Source: Fibrobacteraceae bacterium (lineage in GTDB: Bacteria > Fibrobacterota > Fibrobacteria > Fibrobacterales > Fibrobacteraceae). Taken from it: a stretch of 64,000 bases of DNA. Below the pieces are notes generated by a model. It worked only from the letters and a program-made list of their open reading frames with translations, did not search any database and was not told the DNA's origin. The position numbers and the translations under genes are program-made. The first letter of the stretch is position 1. Each line of letters opens with the position of its first letter. The stretch lies in NCBI GenBank assembly GCA_017625775.1, contig JAGAKE010000015.1:1-64000 (forward strand). Direction: 5' to 3'. Positions 24,914 to 34,160 of this stretch are shown one piece after another.

Positions 24914-25525
24914 TTATTCTTCTATACACCTTATTCGCAAAAAGACCTGCCAACCACCTTCGGGACAGTTTGAGAATACGCCTTGTCCATTTATCTCAGC
25001 GCATTCAAAAACAGTTTCTCCAACCTTAGGATTTTGACCACCGGATACGGCTTCATAATATACAGAGCTTACATTGTCAAAAAAGCAAGAAGCATTAAAG
25101 CCAACAGAATTTTTACCATCTTTACAAGAAGTTGAGCGAAGTCGACTTCCTAATTCCTGGTGCATTTTTCTAATCTGTTTTTCGGTTGCGTCTTTAGCAC
25201 TTGGAATATCCGAAAGTACAAAACCGATCAAATCCACCCAATCTTTAACAGTGGGCAACCTCCATCCCGTAGGGCATACTTTATTTCCCGATTGAACTGT
25301 TGCAAGAAAATCGTACACCCTAATGCAATCATCGGGGTCCGCACCTCCTCGATAATCTGCACATTTAGAAAATTTCGTTTCAAACCTATAGTCTTCCGCC
25401 ATCCATACTTGCTTGCCTATTTTTACAGTTTTGTACTTGTACCCATCTTTATCGGTTACAGTACCTGCCAAAGCAACGGAAAATACGCCTAGTAAGGCAA
25501 TTAATATTTTCTTTTTCATTGTCAT
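24914..25525 (-). CDS. Secreted FISUMP-domain protein
   Basis: A signal peptide (KKKILIALLGVFSVALA) is followed almost at once by a single FISUMP domain: DGYKYKTVKIGKQVWMAEDY, CPTGWRLPTVKDWVDLIGF, a GFNASCFF core and a final cysteine pair ending FLRIRCIEE. The usual YGRLY and FWS elements are diverged. The exported product probably binds a ligand at or outside the cell surface; no catalytic residues are known for the domain. I use the ATG at 25525 because AAAGGA lies five bases upstream; ATG 25531 and 25519 are alternatives. A PD-(D/E)XK-like gene lies just upstream. Confidence 0.85.
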   Translation of the reverse strand: MTMKKKILIALLGVFSVALAGTVTDKDGYKYKTVKIGKQVWMAEDYRFETKFSKCADYRGGADPDDCIRVYDFLATVQSGNKVCPTGWRLPTVKDWVDLIGFVLSDIPSAKDATEKQIRKMHQELGSRLRSTSCKDGKNSVGFNASCFFDNVSSVYYEAVSGGQNPKVGETVFECAEINGQGVFSNCPEGGWQVFLRIRCIEE

Positions 25526-25545
25526 TCTCATCCTTTCTTGTTTTT

Positions 25546-27785: not shown

Positions 27786-29294
27786 ATGAAGATGCCATCA
27801 TTTAAGATTGAAAATTTTGTGAACTACTTTCGTTCAGATATGGTGTGTAATTCAAGTTTAGGTAGTAAAGAATTATTCCACAGCAATATGCTAGGAATGT
27901 TTTTAATGCTAGAAAACACCACAGAGGAAAAACTTCAAAAAAAATTATCAATAGAATTAGCCAAATTGTTTTTGCCAAAAACTAAGTCTAATAAAACATA
28001 TCAAGTGGTTTCAGTTTTTAGAGAGTGGAATAAATTCGATTTGTTTATTGCTTTTTTAGAGAAGGAAACATACGAAGAACTAAAAAAAGATGAAGAAGGA
28101 AAATATTTGCTAGATAGTCTTTACGAAGCAAAAGAAAGTCTTTCTTTTAAAGAATTATCAAAAGCGGTTGAGACGGAATTTGACGAAACAACCCTAAAAG
28201 ATAAAATAAAAAAATTTGGAGAACATTGTCGTTTTGTAGTTGTTGAAAATAAATTTAAATCTATTCCGAATCAAGAGCAGTTAGAGGAGTATTCTGGAAA
28301 AGTAGCAAAAGCAAAAGGAATAGATTTTATTACTGGCGTAGGTAAGAAAGAATGGAATGTTACCGTAAGTAAAGATAACACCACTTTTTATTTGTTAGCT
28401 CCAGAATATTCAATTGATGTTTTTAAAGAATCACAAAAAATAAATAAACCAAAGAAGCCCGAAAATATTAAGTGGAATACGATTAGTTATGAAAAGATAT
28501 GTGAAGAATTAGAACAAATTTTAACTGAAAATAAAACAGAAAACGAATTTGCTTATCAATATGTTGAACGGTATAAAAATCTAATTGAACAATTGTCCGG
28601 GTTGATTGAAAATGAAATTAAAGACCCTATAGAAGCAGATGAAGTTTTCCCCAAAAAAGAAGTAAAAAATAAACTAGCAAGTATTCGCTTACAAGATTTG
28701 TATGAAAAAATATGGTATAACGCGCTTGTAACAAAGTTAAGAAAACCTTGTGTGGAAAATAATAAATTGAAAAACACACGAGAAGTTATTAGTGAAAGTG
28801 GTTATGGCCATCAATCAGGTTTAATGGGTTATAAATGTTATTTAAAAGATAATGTTGCAGAAAATGTTGTATATGGAATTCAAATACAAAGCGGACAATT
28901 TCGTTTTTATGTAGAACCAAATCCCAAGAAAAAAGATAATAAAACAGAATATAAGTGGAAAAATTTTGATAAAAATGAATTTTTAAAAATTTTATGTAGT
29001 GTTAGAAATGATACATTACAAGATTCAGCTCTGCCAAAAGCTCTTCGGGATAAAATCCTTGCAGAAAATTGTAATGAGTGTAGTAAAAAAGAAAAGCCTG
29101 TTAGTTGTGTTAAAAACGAATGTGGCTTTTTGAATTCTACTAATCAAAAATTGAACAAATTTGGTGATTTCAAATATGTGTCAATTAAATTACCTGAAGA
29201 TATTAAAAAAGGTCAATTAATTAAGCTTATAGAAATAGCATTAAAGAACCTTGAGTCAGCAGTTGAAAAAATAAAGGTCTTTTTAAAGTTGTAG
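27786..29294 (+). CDS. PD-(D/E)XK nuclease superfamily protein (PDDEXK_4-like)
   Basis: The N-terminal third carries FDLFIAFLEKETYEEL and, further on, CRFVVVENKFKSIPNQEQL, where VENK gives the ExK of a restriction-endonuclease-like fold and the Gln-rich helix after it is usual in PDDEXK_4 proteins. The 502-residue length is also typical. Near residues 425-445 there is a Cys cluster (ENCNECSKK and SCVKNECGF) that could bind zinc. Such proteins are often stand-alone and are suspected of nucleic-acid defence, but no role is proven. It is extremely AT-rich and Lys-rich compared with the core genes, suggesting transfer. Confidence 0.75.
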   Translation: MKMPSFKIENFVNYFRSDMVCNSSLGSKELFHSNMLGMFLMLENTTEEKLQKKLSIELAKLFLPKTKSNKTYQVVSVFREWNKFDLFIAFLEKETYEELKKDEEGKYLLDSLYEAKESLSFKELSKAVETEFDETTLKDKIKKFGEHCRFVVVENKFKSIPNQEQLEEYSGKVAKAKGIDFITGVGKKEWNVTVSKDNTTFYLLAPEYSIDVFKESQKINKPKKPENIKWNTISYEKICEELEQILTENKTENEFAYQYVERYKNLIEQLSGLIENEIKDPIEADEVFPKKEVKNKLASIRLQDLYEKIWYNALVTKLRKPCVENNKLKNTREVISESGYGHQSGLMGYKCYLKDNVAENVVYGIQIQSGQFRFYVEPNPKKKDNKTEYKWKNFDKNEFLKILCSVRNDTLQDSALPKALRDKILAENCNECSKKEKPVSCVKNECGFLNSTNQKLNKFGDFKYVSIKLPEDIKKGQLIKLIEIALKNLESAVEKIKVFLKL

Positions 29295-29387
29295 AAAAAA
29301 GATAGGCAATAAGAAGGAATATATGCATGGTAATTATTTGCCAAAACTAACCAAATAAAATTTTATTAAACCACAAGGAGAAACCTT

Positions 29388-30017
29388 ATGAAAACAAAAC
29401 TACTCACAATAATTTCGATGTCATTGCTATTCACTGGAATGTCTTTTGCAGGGCAGCAAAAAGGCACAATGAAAGACTCTCGTGATGGTCAAACCTATAA
29501 AACAGTAAAGATTGGTAAACAGGTTTGGATGGCGGAGAATATGAACTATGATATTAAACATAGTTATTGCTATGATGATGACCTTGCAAATTGCGAAAAG
29601 TATGGTCGTTTATACACTTGGGCTGCAGCAAATTATGTTTGCCCAGAGGGCTGGCATTTACCAACTAAAGAAGAATTTGAAACTTTGATGTCAAATGTTG
29701 GTGGATTCGGTGGAACATCGGGCAAAATGTTAAAATCAAAACAAGGGTGGGAACCATACGAACATGAATTTGAGCACGCTTTGCAAGATGGTAATGGAAT
29801 AGATAAATATGGTTTTAATGTTCTCCCAGCGGGCAGTCGCTACTTCACTGGTGATTTCTACAGCGTGGGCGTGTACGCGTTTTTCTGGAGTGCTTCAGAG
29901 ACCAATAGGAACCTCGTTTACGACTTGTACTTGAAGAACCTCAACGAGTCTGCGTACCTGGACTTCAGCAATAAGGGCGACGCGCACTCGGTTCGTTGCC
30001 TCCGGGGCTCCAATTAA
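29388..30017 (+). CDS. Secreted FISUMP-domain protein with a GC-rich, DGR-like variable C-terminus
   Basis: A signal peptide (LLTIISMSLLFTGMSFA) precedes one complete FISUMP domain: DGQTYKTVKIGKQVWMAENM, KYGRLYTWAAA, CPEGWHLPTKEEFETLM, YGFNVLPAGSRYFTGDF, AFFWSASETNRN and HSVRCLRGSN. The first ~145 codons are AT-rich. From codon 147 (29826) on, the third positions are mostly C or G (about 25 NNC codons in 62), and the GC-rich DNA continues past the stop. The C-terminal part has the layout of C-type-lectin variable regions diversified by retroelements. AAGGAG precedes the ATG. Ligand unknown. Confidence 0.88.
   Translation: MKTKLLTIISMSLLFTGMSFAGQQKGTMKDSRDGQTYKTVKIGKQVWMAENMNYDIKHSYCYDDDLANCEKYGRLYTWAAANYVCPEGWHLPTKEEFETLMSNVGGFGGTSGKMLKSKQGWEPYEHEFEHALQDGNGIDKYGFNVLPAGSRYFTGDFYSVGVYAFFWSASETNRNLVYDLYLKNLNESAYLDFSNKGDAHSVRCLRGSN
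29826..30005 (+). other. Candidate diversity-generating-retroelement variable region
   Basis: These bases code for the last 60 residues of the FISUMP domain and differ sharply in composition from the rest of the gene. Many surface-loop codons are NNC (tac, ttc, agc, ggc, gac, aac), as expected if AAC codons of a template were mutated at adenines. The end (cggttcgttgcctccggggc) is GC-rich, as in a mutagenic-homing start site. Template and reverse transcriptase are not in the window. Confidence 0.4.
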
Positions 30018-30018
30018 T

Positions 30019-30042
30019 CCCTGGGAGCGTAGCTCCCGTGGG
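30019..30042. repeat. GC-rich hairpin directly after the FISUMP stop codon
   Basis: GGGAGC/GCTCCC with a 3-base loop, flanked by CCC/GGG that can extend the stem. It begins one base after the stop. There is no T run, so it is not a standard terminator. Two more stem-loops follow: gctgcc/ggcagc (30045-30066) and atttcctctgc/gcagaggaaat (30071-30118). Confidence 0.6.
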
Positions 30043-30116
30043 CCGCTGCCAAGCGAAGCAGGCAGCCAACATTTCCTCTGCCAAGGCCGGGTACACGCCC
30101 CGCCCAAGCAGAGGAA

Positions 30117-30298
30117 ATTGTCATCGCGAACGTAGTGAAGTAATCCAAAAAAAACAACCAATAACACGGCATTCTGCCGTGTTATTATCTTTTATAATCT
30201 CAAAGTAAATGGTTTATTTTTTAGTGACTAGGTTTTTGAACAAGCACAGTATTTGCAATGAGATTGCTTTTATCACTACGTTTCCTCGTAATGACAAA
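30117..30298. repeat. Inverted pair of interspersed repeats and a terminator-like hairpin
   Basis: attgtcatcgcgaacgtagt followed by gaagtaatcc (30117-30146) and, in the opposite sense, the reverse of gtcattacgaggaaacgtag with tgataaaagcaatctc (30260-30298) resemble a family of interspersed repeats I remember from many bacterial genomes. Between them ataacacggc/gccgtgttat (30161-30185) with flanking A and T runs can act as a terminator. No gene is supported here. Confidence 0.55.
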
Positions 30299-30351
30299 CC
30301 GCAGGCAAAAAGAAAAATCCCTCGCAAAATAATATCATCAAAAAAACAAAA

Positions 30352-30453
30352 CTCACTTAAAATTAAAACACAAGAGCGTCGGCCAAGGAAGGGGAGGCAT
30401 GGAGGGGACCGTGCGGCCTTCGCAATTCCGAGCTGGGTTCCCTCCAAAGAAAA
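30352..30453. repeat. ~100-bp direct repeat, copy 1 (possible structured RNA)
   Basis: It matches 31936-32036 over its length with about eight differences. Both copies keep an outer helix (AGC-G-TCGG with CCGAGCT, one bulged G) and an inner hairpin; here the inner stem is GCATGG/CCGTGC with one G-U pair. The orientation of any transcript is unknown. Confidence 0.6.
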
Positions 30454-30475
30454 AATTTGCAAAAGAAATCAAAAA

Positions 30476-30505
30476 AAATCTCCCGCTAAAACTAGTAGGA
30501 GATTT
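30476..30505 (-). terminator. Terminator of the Rpn gene
   Basis: Arms aaatctcc and ggagattt with an inner cta/tag pair form a stem; on the minus strand it is followed by a run of T. It lies 14 bases beyond the Rpn stop. Confidence 0.75.
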
Positions 30506-30518
30506 ATGAAGTTAAAAG

Positions 30519-31598
30519 TTATAACTTTAGAATTACCTCTTCCGATAATCCAGAAATAATTTTGATTTTATCAATAGGAATACCTTCCATAAGCATCGCT
30601 TTTGCCATTTCACATTTAGCATCAGTAATGCCTTTTATCTCCCCTTCAGAAAAGCCCTTGGCTTTACCATCAAGAAAACCTTCAGCCTTACCTTCAGAGA
30701 ATCCTGTAGAGAACCCTTTCTCTTCTCCCTTAGAAAAACCTGTAGAGAATCCTTTTTCCTCGCCGGCGGAGAATCCACGATTATAGTCAGCATCGGCTAT
30801 TGAGACATAGCCTTTATTTTGAATAACTTCGAGCGAATCCATAATCATCTCCTTTTCTTCCTCGGGGAGCATCCCTCTTAAATATACCAAAATTTCTTCG
30901 ACGATACTACGGAAGTTTTGTTTTGATTTTAAAAGCCTTCGAAGTGCTGTTTTAAAATATTTTTCAGCACCGTAAGCATCAAAAACCATCCGCATAGCAG
31001 CAATCGCTAAGGCCAAAAGCGGGTCCAAGTTCGAAAAATCAACTTGTTCGCGGCCTAAATCGATAAATTCCACTCGGAAAGGCAAACCGACTTTCTGGAA
31101 GAATTCGGGATAACCTAGATGAGGCTTAATTTTTAGCGGATTCCACTTATCGCGTCCATTGTAAACGATAATCGCAACTGCCGGAATGTTTCCTGCTTTT
31201 TGGTGCATCACTTCAAAGTAATATTTCAAAAGCTGATTCCTTATTTTTGAATCGCGGTAGGATTTGTGTTCAAGAATCAAACCGACAAGCAATTGGTCCG
31301 AGTGGTCACTTTCTGAATTAGAACCTTTTTCGTTTCCTGCGAGAGAATGATTTCGGCGTTTATTCTTTGCAGAATTTTTGATTTCCACTTTGAAAGTTAG
31401 ATCGCCTGACCCGCTCGCGCCCTCTCGTGTTGCCGCTCCTGAAATTTCCTGAAGCGTTTCAAGGTTAATTAAGCTGAGGAGTTCTTTTAGATTCGGGTTG
31501 TTTTTCGCGGCCAATGAAATCAAGTTGGCTGTGTTTTTGGGGTCCGCAAAAATCGTGCGAAAGAAGTTATCGTGGTTTCTTTTTTGTGAGTTTGTCAT
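30519..31598 (-). CDS. Rpn-family recombination-promoting nuclease / putative transposase
   Basis: Member of the PD-(D/E)XK Rpn (Transposase_31, PF04754-like) family, whose E. coli members cut DNA and promote RecA-independent recombination; recent work links some to phage defence. The active-site elements are GDLTFKVEIKN and LLVGLILEHKSYRDSKIRNQLLKYY (D then EHK). AGNIPAVAIIVYNGRDKWNP is a family hallmark. The C-terminal ~90 residues hold repeated GFSxGEEKGFSTGFS-type units (about 283-330) and a final helical part. The 359 residues are full length. It is bracketed by the ~100-bp direct repeats. Confidence 0.88.
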   Translation of the reverse strand: MTNSQKRNHDNFFRTIFADPKNTANLISLAAKNNPNLKELLSLINLETLQEISGAATREGASGSGDLTFKVEIKNSAKNKRRNHSLAGNEKGSNSESDHSDQLLVGLILEHKSYRDSKIRNQLLKYYFEVMHQKAGNIPAVAIIVYNGRDKWNPLKIKPHLGYPEFFQKVGLPFRVEFIDLGREQVDFSNLDPLLALAIAAMRMVFDAYGAEKYFKTALRRLLKSKQNFRSIVEEILVYLRGMLPEEEKEMIMDSLEVIQNKGYVSIADADYNRGFSAGEEKGFSTGFSKGEEKGFSTGFSEGKAEGFLDGKAKGFSEGEIKGITDAKCEMAKAMLMEGIPIDKIKIISGLSEEVILKL

Positions 31599-31935: not shown

Positions 31936-32036
31936 CTCACTTAAAATTAAAGCACAAGAGCGTCGGCCAAGGAAGGGGAGGCATGGAGTGAACCATGCGG
32001 CCTTCGCAACTCCGAGCTAGGTCCCCTCCAAAGAAA
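31936..32036. repeat. ~100-bp direct repeat, copy 2 (possible structured RNA)
   Basis: Second copy of the element at 30352-30453. The inner hairpin is GCATGG/CCATGC (31981-31998), fully paired, and the outer helix pairs 31959-31966 with 32012-32018. An additional AGGGGA/TCCCCT pairing is possible here and as a G-U variant in copy 1. Confidence 0.6.
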
Positions 32037-32154
32037 AGAATTACAAAAGAAAAAATAAGTCCTCGCGAGAGACAAAACCCGCGAATGACAAGGTTCTCTA
32101 GCAAGTGCATCAATAAAGAGCTTCATACATGTCCACCCATACATACTTCTGTAG

Positions 32155-32642: not shown

Positions 32643-34160
32643 ATGAAAAAACTTTTCATCGGATTTGCACTTGCCGCATTTTTTGTTGCCTGCGGAGACG
32701 ATCCCAGCAGTGCCAAAGACTCCCCGATTTCTTCCAGCGAAGAAACATCTTTAAGTTCTAACGAGGAAAAATCCTCCAGTTCCAATATTAACTCAGAATC
32801 CTCTTCTAGCAATAAAACTTTAGAAAGTTCAAGTTCCACGCCTGCAGCGAACTCCAGTTCTTCATCAACGGAGAGTTTCAGTAGCGGAAAGCAGGAAAGT
32901 TCTTCCAGTGAGGTCGAAAGCTATTTCAACCCTGCTATTTCTTATGGTGAATTTCTAGACACCCGTGACCAGCAAAGCTACAAAACCGTAAAAATCGGAA
33001 CCCAAACCTGGATGGCACAGAACAACAACTATGTTGTAAAAGGATACGATAATTCCTGTGCTTACACTTACCTAGATTCTGATTTGGTGACGACACGGGA
33101 CTCTTGTGGAAAATATGGAAGAGTATACAACATTAATTCCGCCGAGAAATCCTGCCCGGAAGGATGGCACCTCCCAAGCCACGCCGACGTAGAAACATTA
33201 ATCAGCTATATAACTCCGCTTTCCAAAGGCAAGACGGCGCAAGCTTTGAAGTCCATAATCGGTTGGAACGAAGGCGAGGGAACGGACCTGGTGGGATTTA
33301 GCGCCATTCCCGAAAATTTGAACGCTCGAAATTTTTTCTTCACTTATGATACGATTCCATTTGTAGAGTTCTGGACGAATTCATCAGTTGCCGCCGGGGC
33401 AAATATATGCTTCCGCCTGTTTGCAGGCGTAGACACGGTGGAAATCAGTGCCATGGACAACATCTTAGGCAAATCTGTCCGATGCATTATGGATGAACCC
33501 GCCGCTCCTATCAAATCCAAGGATGATTTGCTAAATCCGGATATTACCTATGGTACAGTAACGGACTTGCGAGACCATCAATCCTACAAGACCATTACCA
33601 TCGGCGACCAGACATGGATGGCGGAGAACCTGAACTACGCAGACAGTGTTACTACGCCCAGCCTTCTTGGCCGCAGCAACTGCTACGGGGACTCGCTTAA
33701 AAATTGCGAAATCTACGGCAGACTCTACAGCTGGACCGCCGCCATTGATTCCGTGGAGCTTTCAAAACAAGGACTGAATTGCGGTGATCACGCCCTCTGC
33801 GAAATGCCTGAAAACGTTCAAGGCATCTGCCCCGAAGGATGGCAGCTACCCAAATTGAAGGATTTTCAAACACTAATTCAACACATCGGGACGAAATTTA
33901 CAGACTACCCTGGACTAAAGCTTAAATCAAAAGTCAGCTGGAAAGCCGGTGGTAACGGTACAGATGTTTATGGGTTCTCTCTAGCCTCTGCCGACCACAA
34001 AGACGCCCCTCTCTGGATTGCAGAAAGCAAGGCATCTAACTCTGGCGACGGTTACGTCTATGCCCATTACTTTAACTTGAGCTACAACAGCGATAGTCAG
34101 GGATTCAGCATTCAAGGAACCTCCCACAAATATTCCGTGCGTTGTCTGAAATCAAAATAG
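32643..34160 (+). CDS. Lipoprotein with Ser-rich linker and two FISUMP domains
   Basis: The lipobox FFVACGDD gives a lipid-anchored surface or periplasmic protein. Residues about 22-98 are a Ser/Glu-rich linker, as is common in Fibrobacter secreted proteins. Two FISUMP domains follow: about 105-285 (QQSYKTVKIGTQTWMAQNNN, CPEGWHLPS, SVRCIMD) and about 300-505 (HQSYKTITIGDQTWMAENLN, CPEGWQLPK, SVRCLKSK). Codon use is more GC-rich than nearby core genes. AGGAGG lies upstream of the ATG and TATATT about 30 bases upstream. Probably a ligand-binding surface protein. Confidence 0.9.
   Translation: MKKLFIGFALAAFFVACGDDPSSAKDSPISSSEETSLSSNEEKSSSSNINSESSSSNKTLESSSSTPAANSSSSSTESFSSGKQESSSSEVESYFNPAISYGEFLDTRDQQSYKTVKIGTQTWMAQNNNYVVKGYDNSCAYTYLDSDLVTTRDSCGKYGRVYNINSAEKSCPEGWHLPSHADVETLISYITPLSKGKTAQALKSIIGWNEGEGTDLVGFSAIPENLNARNFFFTYDTIPFVEFWTNSSVAAGANICFRLFAGVDTVEISAMDNILGKSVRCIMDEPAAPIKSKDDLLNPDITYGTVTDLRDHQSYKTITIGDQTWMAENLNYADSVTTPSLLGRSNCYGDSLKNCEIYGRLYSWTAAIDSVELSKQGLNCGDHALCEMPENVQGICPEGWQLPKLKDFQTLIQHIGTKFTDYPGLKLKSKVSWKAGGNGTDVYGFSLASADHKDAPLWIAESKASNSGDGYVYAHYFNLSYNSDSQGFSIQGTSHKYSVRCLKSK

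Follow-up and report, generated by a model that had tools for sequence, protein, structure and literature searches.

The target gene and its 3' end

The window (the whole 64-kb stretch of DNA analysed) belongs to contig C13 of a 1.98-Mb draft assembly that consists of 55 contigs and is 71% complete. It contains a gene of the FISUMP (Fib_succ_major) family, and its assignment to this family lies above both curated cut-offs (TIGR02145, E=3e-58, 197.3 bits against a cut-off of 41.65; PF09603, E=1e-30, 107.6 bits against 33.9). Among the closest named relatives of the gene the majority are Fibrobacter MAGs, and its N-terminus is signal-peptide-like by eye. To our knowledge, the FISUMP family, which is abundant in Fibrobacter, has no established function. 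A sequence search of the PDB and a PADLOC search for defence systems returned no match for the target protein, and a search of Rfam over 29000-31000 found nothing.

The original prediction proposed that the end of this gene is a variable region (VR) of a diversity-generating retroelement (DGR) supplied from outside the window. The GC-rich, NNC-rich character of the segment is borne out: GC content rises from 37% in the gene portion ending at 29818 to 55% over 29819-30011 and 68% immediately past the stop codon, and 30 of 63 codons end in C (about 25 of 62 had been counted). The proposed bounds needed a small shift at the start, as the homology begins at 29819 rather than 29826 (29823 in the most divergent copy). 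The window contains neither a template repeat (TR) nor a reverse transcriptase (RT), as had been predicted, since a 17-nt motif of the VR end occurs a single time in the 64 kb and a tblastn search with RT across the window found no match. The other two FISUMP genes checked within the window (24914-25531 and 32643-34160) therefore lack a VR end.

Table 1. Features of the target locus and of the associated Avd gene
Feature	Position	Strand	Basis or remark
33-nt remnant, 85% similar to the RT gene tail upstream of the cis target	29314..29346	+	blastn E=2e-5 (pairwise)
FISUMP (Fib_succ_major) target gene, 209 aa	29388..30017	+	TIGR02145 and PF09603 matches
DGR variable region (VR)	29819..30011	+	homologous to TR at C32:62678-62870
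IMH-like 3' VR end (TCGGTTCGTTGCCTCCGGG)	29988..30006	+	alignment, codon table
GC hairpin GGGAGC-GTA-GCTCCC, candidate target-recognition hairpin/cruciform	30023..30037	+	6 nt past stop
Two further stem-loops	30040..30120	+	alignment; conserved 3' of most other VR genes
Copy of ~115-nt dispersed repeat	30330..30460	+	33 matches in 2-Mb genome
Avd-fusion ORF, 249 aa	C32:61819-62568		upstream of TR; C-terminal half Avd

The template repeat and adenine bias

A DNA search of the same genome with the VR segment recovered several related places, of which the adenine-rich one (C32:62678-62870) is the TR. It lies outside any FISUMP gene, contains 15 AAC and 7 AAT codons, and is on a separate contig from the window gene at a distance of at least 92 kb. 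An adenine-biased template elsewhere in the genome, which the original prediction had called for, is thus present on contig C32, where it is accompanied by an Avd homologue and an RT remnant. Of the 65 adenines in the template, 34 are changed in the window VR, as against 12 of the 128 positions with another base (Fisher p=1.2e-10). Similar proportions of adenines are changed in the other four VRs (31/65 in C32:63760, 32/65 in C32:7568, 31/65 in C48 and 31/63 in C54), and for the five VRs pooled the mismatches are 159/323 at template A and 45/635 elsewhere, with p<5e-9 for each VR. All five VRs of the genome sit in FISUMP genes, and all five reading frames are open. In the codon table, AAY codons of the template become NNY codons in the VRs while TGG, GAG, TTC and GCG codons are unchanged, and the VRs are GC-rich because of this conversion.

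Comparison of the window gene with the cis gene (C32:63332-63958), which lies beside the TR, shows the same concentration of change: the scaffold is 9.1% divergent, VR positions that are not template adenines 10.2%, template-A positions 58.5%, and the region just downstream 6.4%. The gene carrying the C54 VR can be compared with its orthologue in a sister species (G001), from which it differs by 5.3% in the main scaffold and by 12% in the last 210 nt; within the VR, the divergence is 17% at non-A and 49% at template-A positions. VR variation is therefore concentrated at TR adenines both between paralogues and between orthologues of two species.

The abrupt switch from AT-rich to GC-rich sequence could also have arisen by plain recombination, or a domain swap, with a GC-rich FISUMP homologue and with no retroelement involved. 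Recombination of this kind does not predict that in each of the five VRs the differences should concentrate where a single copy, the TR, has adenine. The contrast between A and non-A positions collapses when any of four VRs is taken as template instead of the TR, and the GC-richness itself is explained by the conversion of AAY to NNY. Recombination or a foreign GC-rich domain swap was therefore rejected and is regarded as extremely improbable.

Elements downstream of the variable region

The 3' end of the VR (29988-30006) contains no adenine in the TR and is nearly invariant across the TR and all five VRs; by analogy with the DGR of BPP-1 (PMC3240598), it is a putative IMH. A search of IMG/VR with this 19-nt end, directed at a phage origin of the window copy, gave no match. 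The A-free end is followed, past the stop codon, by the 6-bp GC hairpin that the original prediction had placed there. The folding energy of the hairpin by itself is unexceptional (z=-1.4). The VR end GGTTCGTTGCCTCCGGG followed by an identical GC hairpin is found at three of the five VRs (window, cis and C54), and the alignment of TR and VR loci shows no such hairpin after the TR, so that at the level of sequence an IMH-like end and a hairpin lie 3' of the VR and no hairpin lies at the TR. Most VRs in relatives also have a hairpin just past the stop codon, with differing sequence, resembling the requirement of BPP-1 for a stem structure rather than a particular sequence (PMC3240598). Phage DGR hairpins have stems of 7-10 bp and 4-nt GRNA loops (PMC3240598), whereas the hairpin described here has 6 bp and a GTA loop. 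Roux et al. argued that C-terminal VRs are favored because the IMH and hairpin elements can then be intergenic. The two additional stem-loops predicted after the hairpin were likewise recovered; they are kept at most other VR loci and are perhaps a terminator.

Two VRs (C32:7568, also called C32a, and C48:17014) have a common insertion of ~75 nt between the VR end and the hairpin position, and their stop codon is shifted into the VR end. The hairpin position past the insertion is degenerate in C32a. A block at C10:67989-68069 consists of the hairpin and stem-loops (85% match to the region downstream of the VRs) and has no VR or FISUMP gene. It adjoins the dispersed repeat and an Rpn gene and is perhaps the remnant of a target gene.

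The Avd fusion and the reverse transcriptase remnant

The order of the DGR locus in this genome is Avd, TR, RT remnant and VR. The accessory protein Avd of DGRs is present beside the TR, encoded by an open reading frame that matches phrog_3206 ('Avd protein of DGR') at 7.6e-6. NF033474 is found in 16 of 17 homologues of the Avd fusion, where the copy described here scores 22.5 bits, below the curated cut-off of 80, and PF22296 (bAvd) is found in eight of the homologues. MutS domain I (PF01624) is matched weakly (E=0.006) by one of the 17 homologues and not by this copy; on the sequence of the family, the N-terminal half of the fusion may be MutS-domain-I-like. MSL, which has been attributed to the MutS domain I Pfam, is a known DGR accessory protein (PMC10053308). 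The Avd-fusion gene is carried by 23 of 200 relatives, and genes 26-27% identical to it occur on IMG/VR viral contigs too. A distinct DGR type, which may be prophage-borne, is found in one group of family relatives.

The RT gene directly downstream of the TR is a remnant with three lesions (two deletions and a 1-base frameshift), in which motif A and IGNLTSQ have been deleted. Compared with the full-length RTs of relatives, about residues 152-169, 228-248 and 250-354 are left, in differing frames. The full-length RT used as query, from one of these relatives (G018), matches PDB entry 8ub7 ('Reverse transcriptase', 328 aa, E=9e-37), which we take to be the BPP-1 DGR enzyme. A search of the assembled 2 Mb with PF00078 and this RT for a second or intact RT found the remnant alone. 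The RT that the original prediction expected elsewhere in the genome therefore exists beside the TR as a remnant and not as an intact enzyme, and no functional DGR-type RT adjoins the TR in this genome. Judged from these sequences, the element is a DGR by descent and not a complete functional DGR in the present assembly.

Intact systems and remote targets in relatives

In relatives, RTs with intact IGNLTSQ and YVDD motifs adjoin the TRs, and mismatches between TR and VR in cis are almost purely at A (30/30, 28/28, 22/22 and 20/20). Most relatives have the order VR, Avd, TR, RT; one locus (in relative G043) has the order VR, RT, Avd, TR. Some family relatives possess several DGR loci. The 99% complete genome G011 possesses one DGR with an intact RT, and FISUMP-like genes spread over seven of its contigs hold about ten VRs. 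These VRs span a range of ages, with a near-fresh one on contig C116 (29 A against 1 non-A mismatch) at one end and an old one (38 against 30) at the other. The C116 copy is out of frame past the VR start in the draft, and the gene may therefore be damaged. In G022, a VR with 34 A and 4 non-A mismatches lies on a separate 372-kb contig. Remote VRs are therefore a feature of the family and are not peculiar to the genome of the window.

The sister species G001 (98% complete) has kept VR genes without a detectable RT or Avd, and neither RT nor Avd was detected in a second sister species, G002 (94%). An empty RT search is by itself weak proof, although the same RT query does detect the remnant in the genome of the window.

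Past diversification and present activity

At several sites expected to be invariant, the TR departs from most or all of the VRs. At template position 14 the TR has T and all VRs have G, position 99 is T in the TR and C in four of the five VRs, and codon 161 is AAA in the TR and ends in C in all VRs. At TR codons 17 (TAC) and 146 (AGC), the VRs vary as though the writing template had AAC. These disagreements indicate that the TR went on to change after the VRs had been written. The window VR has a higher proportion of non-A mismatches (9%) than the VRs of intact systems, which means that it was not written from exactly the present TR. Additionally, the window and C48 VRs have in common a non-template CAA at template positions 85-87, which points to a second version of the template that has been lost or is unassembled.

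Since the assembly is 71% complete, it may lack an intact RT or a second TR that the organism has. The same DGR might thus still be active, with an intact RT, along with a second TR of slightly different sequence, located in the missing ~29% of the genome and the window gene being rewritten in trans. The common CAA, which looks as if it came from another version of the TR, the five open VR frames and the several DGR loci of some family relatives would fit such activity. It is nevertheless unlikely, given that no further RT is found in the assembled 2 Mb, that both sister species show neither RT nor Avd, and that the non-A divergence of the VR is about that of the scaffold, which leaves no visible recent overwriting from a common template. 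Mis-binning or an assembly error at the RT is also possible. Under an assembly artefact, the DGR on C32 would be intact and active; the genome is a draft of many contigs, and strain mixtures can give collapsed joins in draft assemblies. The TR itself, however, has drifted from the VR consensus, and three separate lesions in the RT are more readily explained by stepwise decay than by a single faulty join, so that an artefact is less likely still.

Diversification in trans, as originally proposed, is upheld by the template and the adenine bias; present-day activity is unsupported, given an RT pseudogene in this assembly and a drifted TR. Past diversification of the gene took place in trans, whereas today it is probably frozen, resembling a single member of an antibody-like repertoire that no longer changes. 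We are highly confident that a chromosomal DGR, acting partly in trans, had 29819-30011 as one of its VRs and that its repertoire has since most likely been frozen.

The target proteins

An AF2 model of the window protein has a pLDDT of 91.5. Many of its top PDB matches by Foldseek are C-type lectins, none of them significant (best E=0.1). Besides the signal-peptide-like N-terminus of the window protein, some other VR targets have lipoprotein-like N-termini by eye, and one FISUMP protein was detected among cell-envelope proteins of F. succinogenes (PMC4619616), which together suggest that the targets are displayed at the surface. The variable codons, mostly AAC or AAT in the template, fall in the C-terminal strands of the predicted surface protein. 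By DGR precedent, the targets are therefore likely binding proteins that differ from one another in the face presented to the ligand.

Possible spread of the target cassette

The 33-nt match upstream of the window gene to the tail of the RT gene suggests that a unit composed of the RT end and the target was duplicated. Copies of the ~115-nt dispersed repeat lie 250-400 nt downstream of four of the five VRs in the same orientation, and this repeat may have moved the VR cassette. The repeat carries a strong GGAGGGGACC/GGTCCCCTCC stem, and the window contains a second copy of it at 31936-32042. An Rpn-like (Transposase_31, PF04754) gene is located at 30519-31598 on the minus strand of the window, and PF04754 occurs at seven places in the genome. 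Four of the seven genes lie between two copies of the repeat (C13:30939, C54:34025, C10:68822 and C10:273738), and a single copy is found close to another two, an arrangement that looks like a mobile unit of the form repeat-gene-repeat.

Proposed mechanism

By analogy with BPP-1, the VRs would have been written by retrohoming. An error-prone RT, assisted by an Avd-type protein, would have made cDNA from a transcript of the TR, with template adenines randomized in the process, and this cDNA would have replaced the 3' ends of those FISUMP genes that have the homologous segment followed by a hairpin. The FISUMP genes written in this way number at least five: the neighbour of the RT, a second gene at a distance of 55 kb on C32, and three carried by other contigs, the window gene among them. 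In this genome the RT then fell into decay and drift of the template set in, and the repertoire is now most likely frozen.

Comparison with known systems

The BPP-1 DGR (PMC3240598) likewise has a TR and VR, mutagenesis of adenines, Avd, RT and IMH, as well as a hairpin that closely follows the VR. The BPP-1 system differs in being a phage element that acts in cis with an intact RT, and the Avd described here has an additional, possibly MutS-I-like N-terminal half. The DGR of Treponema denticola (PMC4891356) is similar in having one TR and RT and several remote VRs in paralogous targets, with up to seven scattered target genes, and T. denticola strains exist that have targets without RT or TR. 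Its targets are of the FGE-sulfatase type, whereas those described here are FISUMP proteins, and the present locus still shows both the RT remnant and the drifting TR. Thiohalocapsa PB-PSB1 (PMC10907252) likewise has several loci, some pseudogenized RTs, remote targets in trans and MITE-like repeats near the loci. It differs in that intact RTs remain and activity is seen in metagenomes, and its targets are linked to conflict systems rather than being FISUMP surface-type proteins. Ye (2014, PMC4159848) reported the Fib_succ_major domain among DGR targets in human microbiomes (nine proteins); in the parts of that study consulted, the target domain is the same and no trans repertoire or decayed Fibrobacter system was found. 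No paper describing trans FISUMP repertoires in Fibrobacter was found in the literature searched, which lay mostly outside subscription papers. FISUMP-domain targets and remote VRs have each been published before, and the present case is a well-resolved further member in a decayed state.

The case illustrates the gap in surveys with respect to Roux et al. It also offers a concrete origin for some of the variability at the C-termini of FISUMP proteins. If the reading given here is true, a frozen repertoire can still be read against its decaying template. Since the DGR targets have outlived the enzyme, selection on a repertoire after loss of its mutator can be asked about. For the Fibrobacteraceae as a whole, we lean towards the view that part of the FISUMP family consists of surface binders diversified in trans, with one DGR, whose Avd is fused to a MutS-I-like domain, rewriting many scattered FISUMP genes (about ten in G011), and that the genus of the window lost the writer and kept the frozen repertoire.
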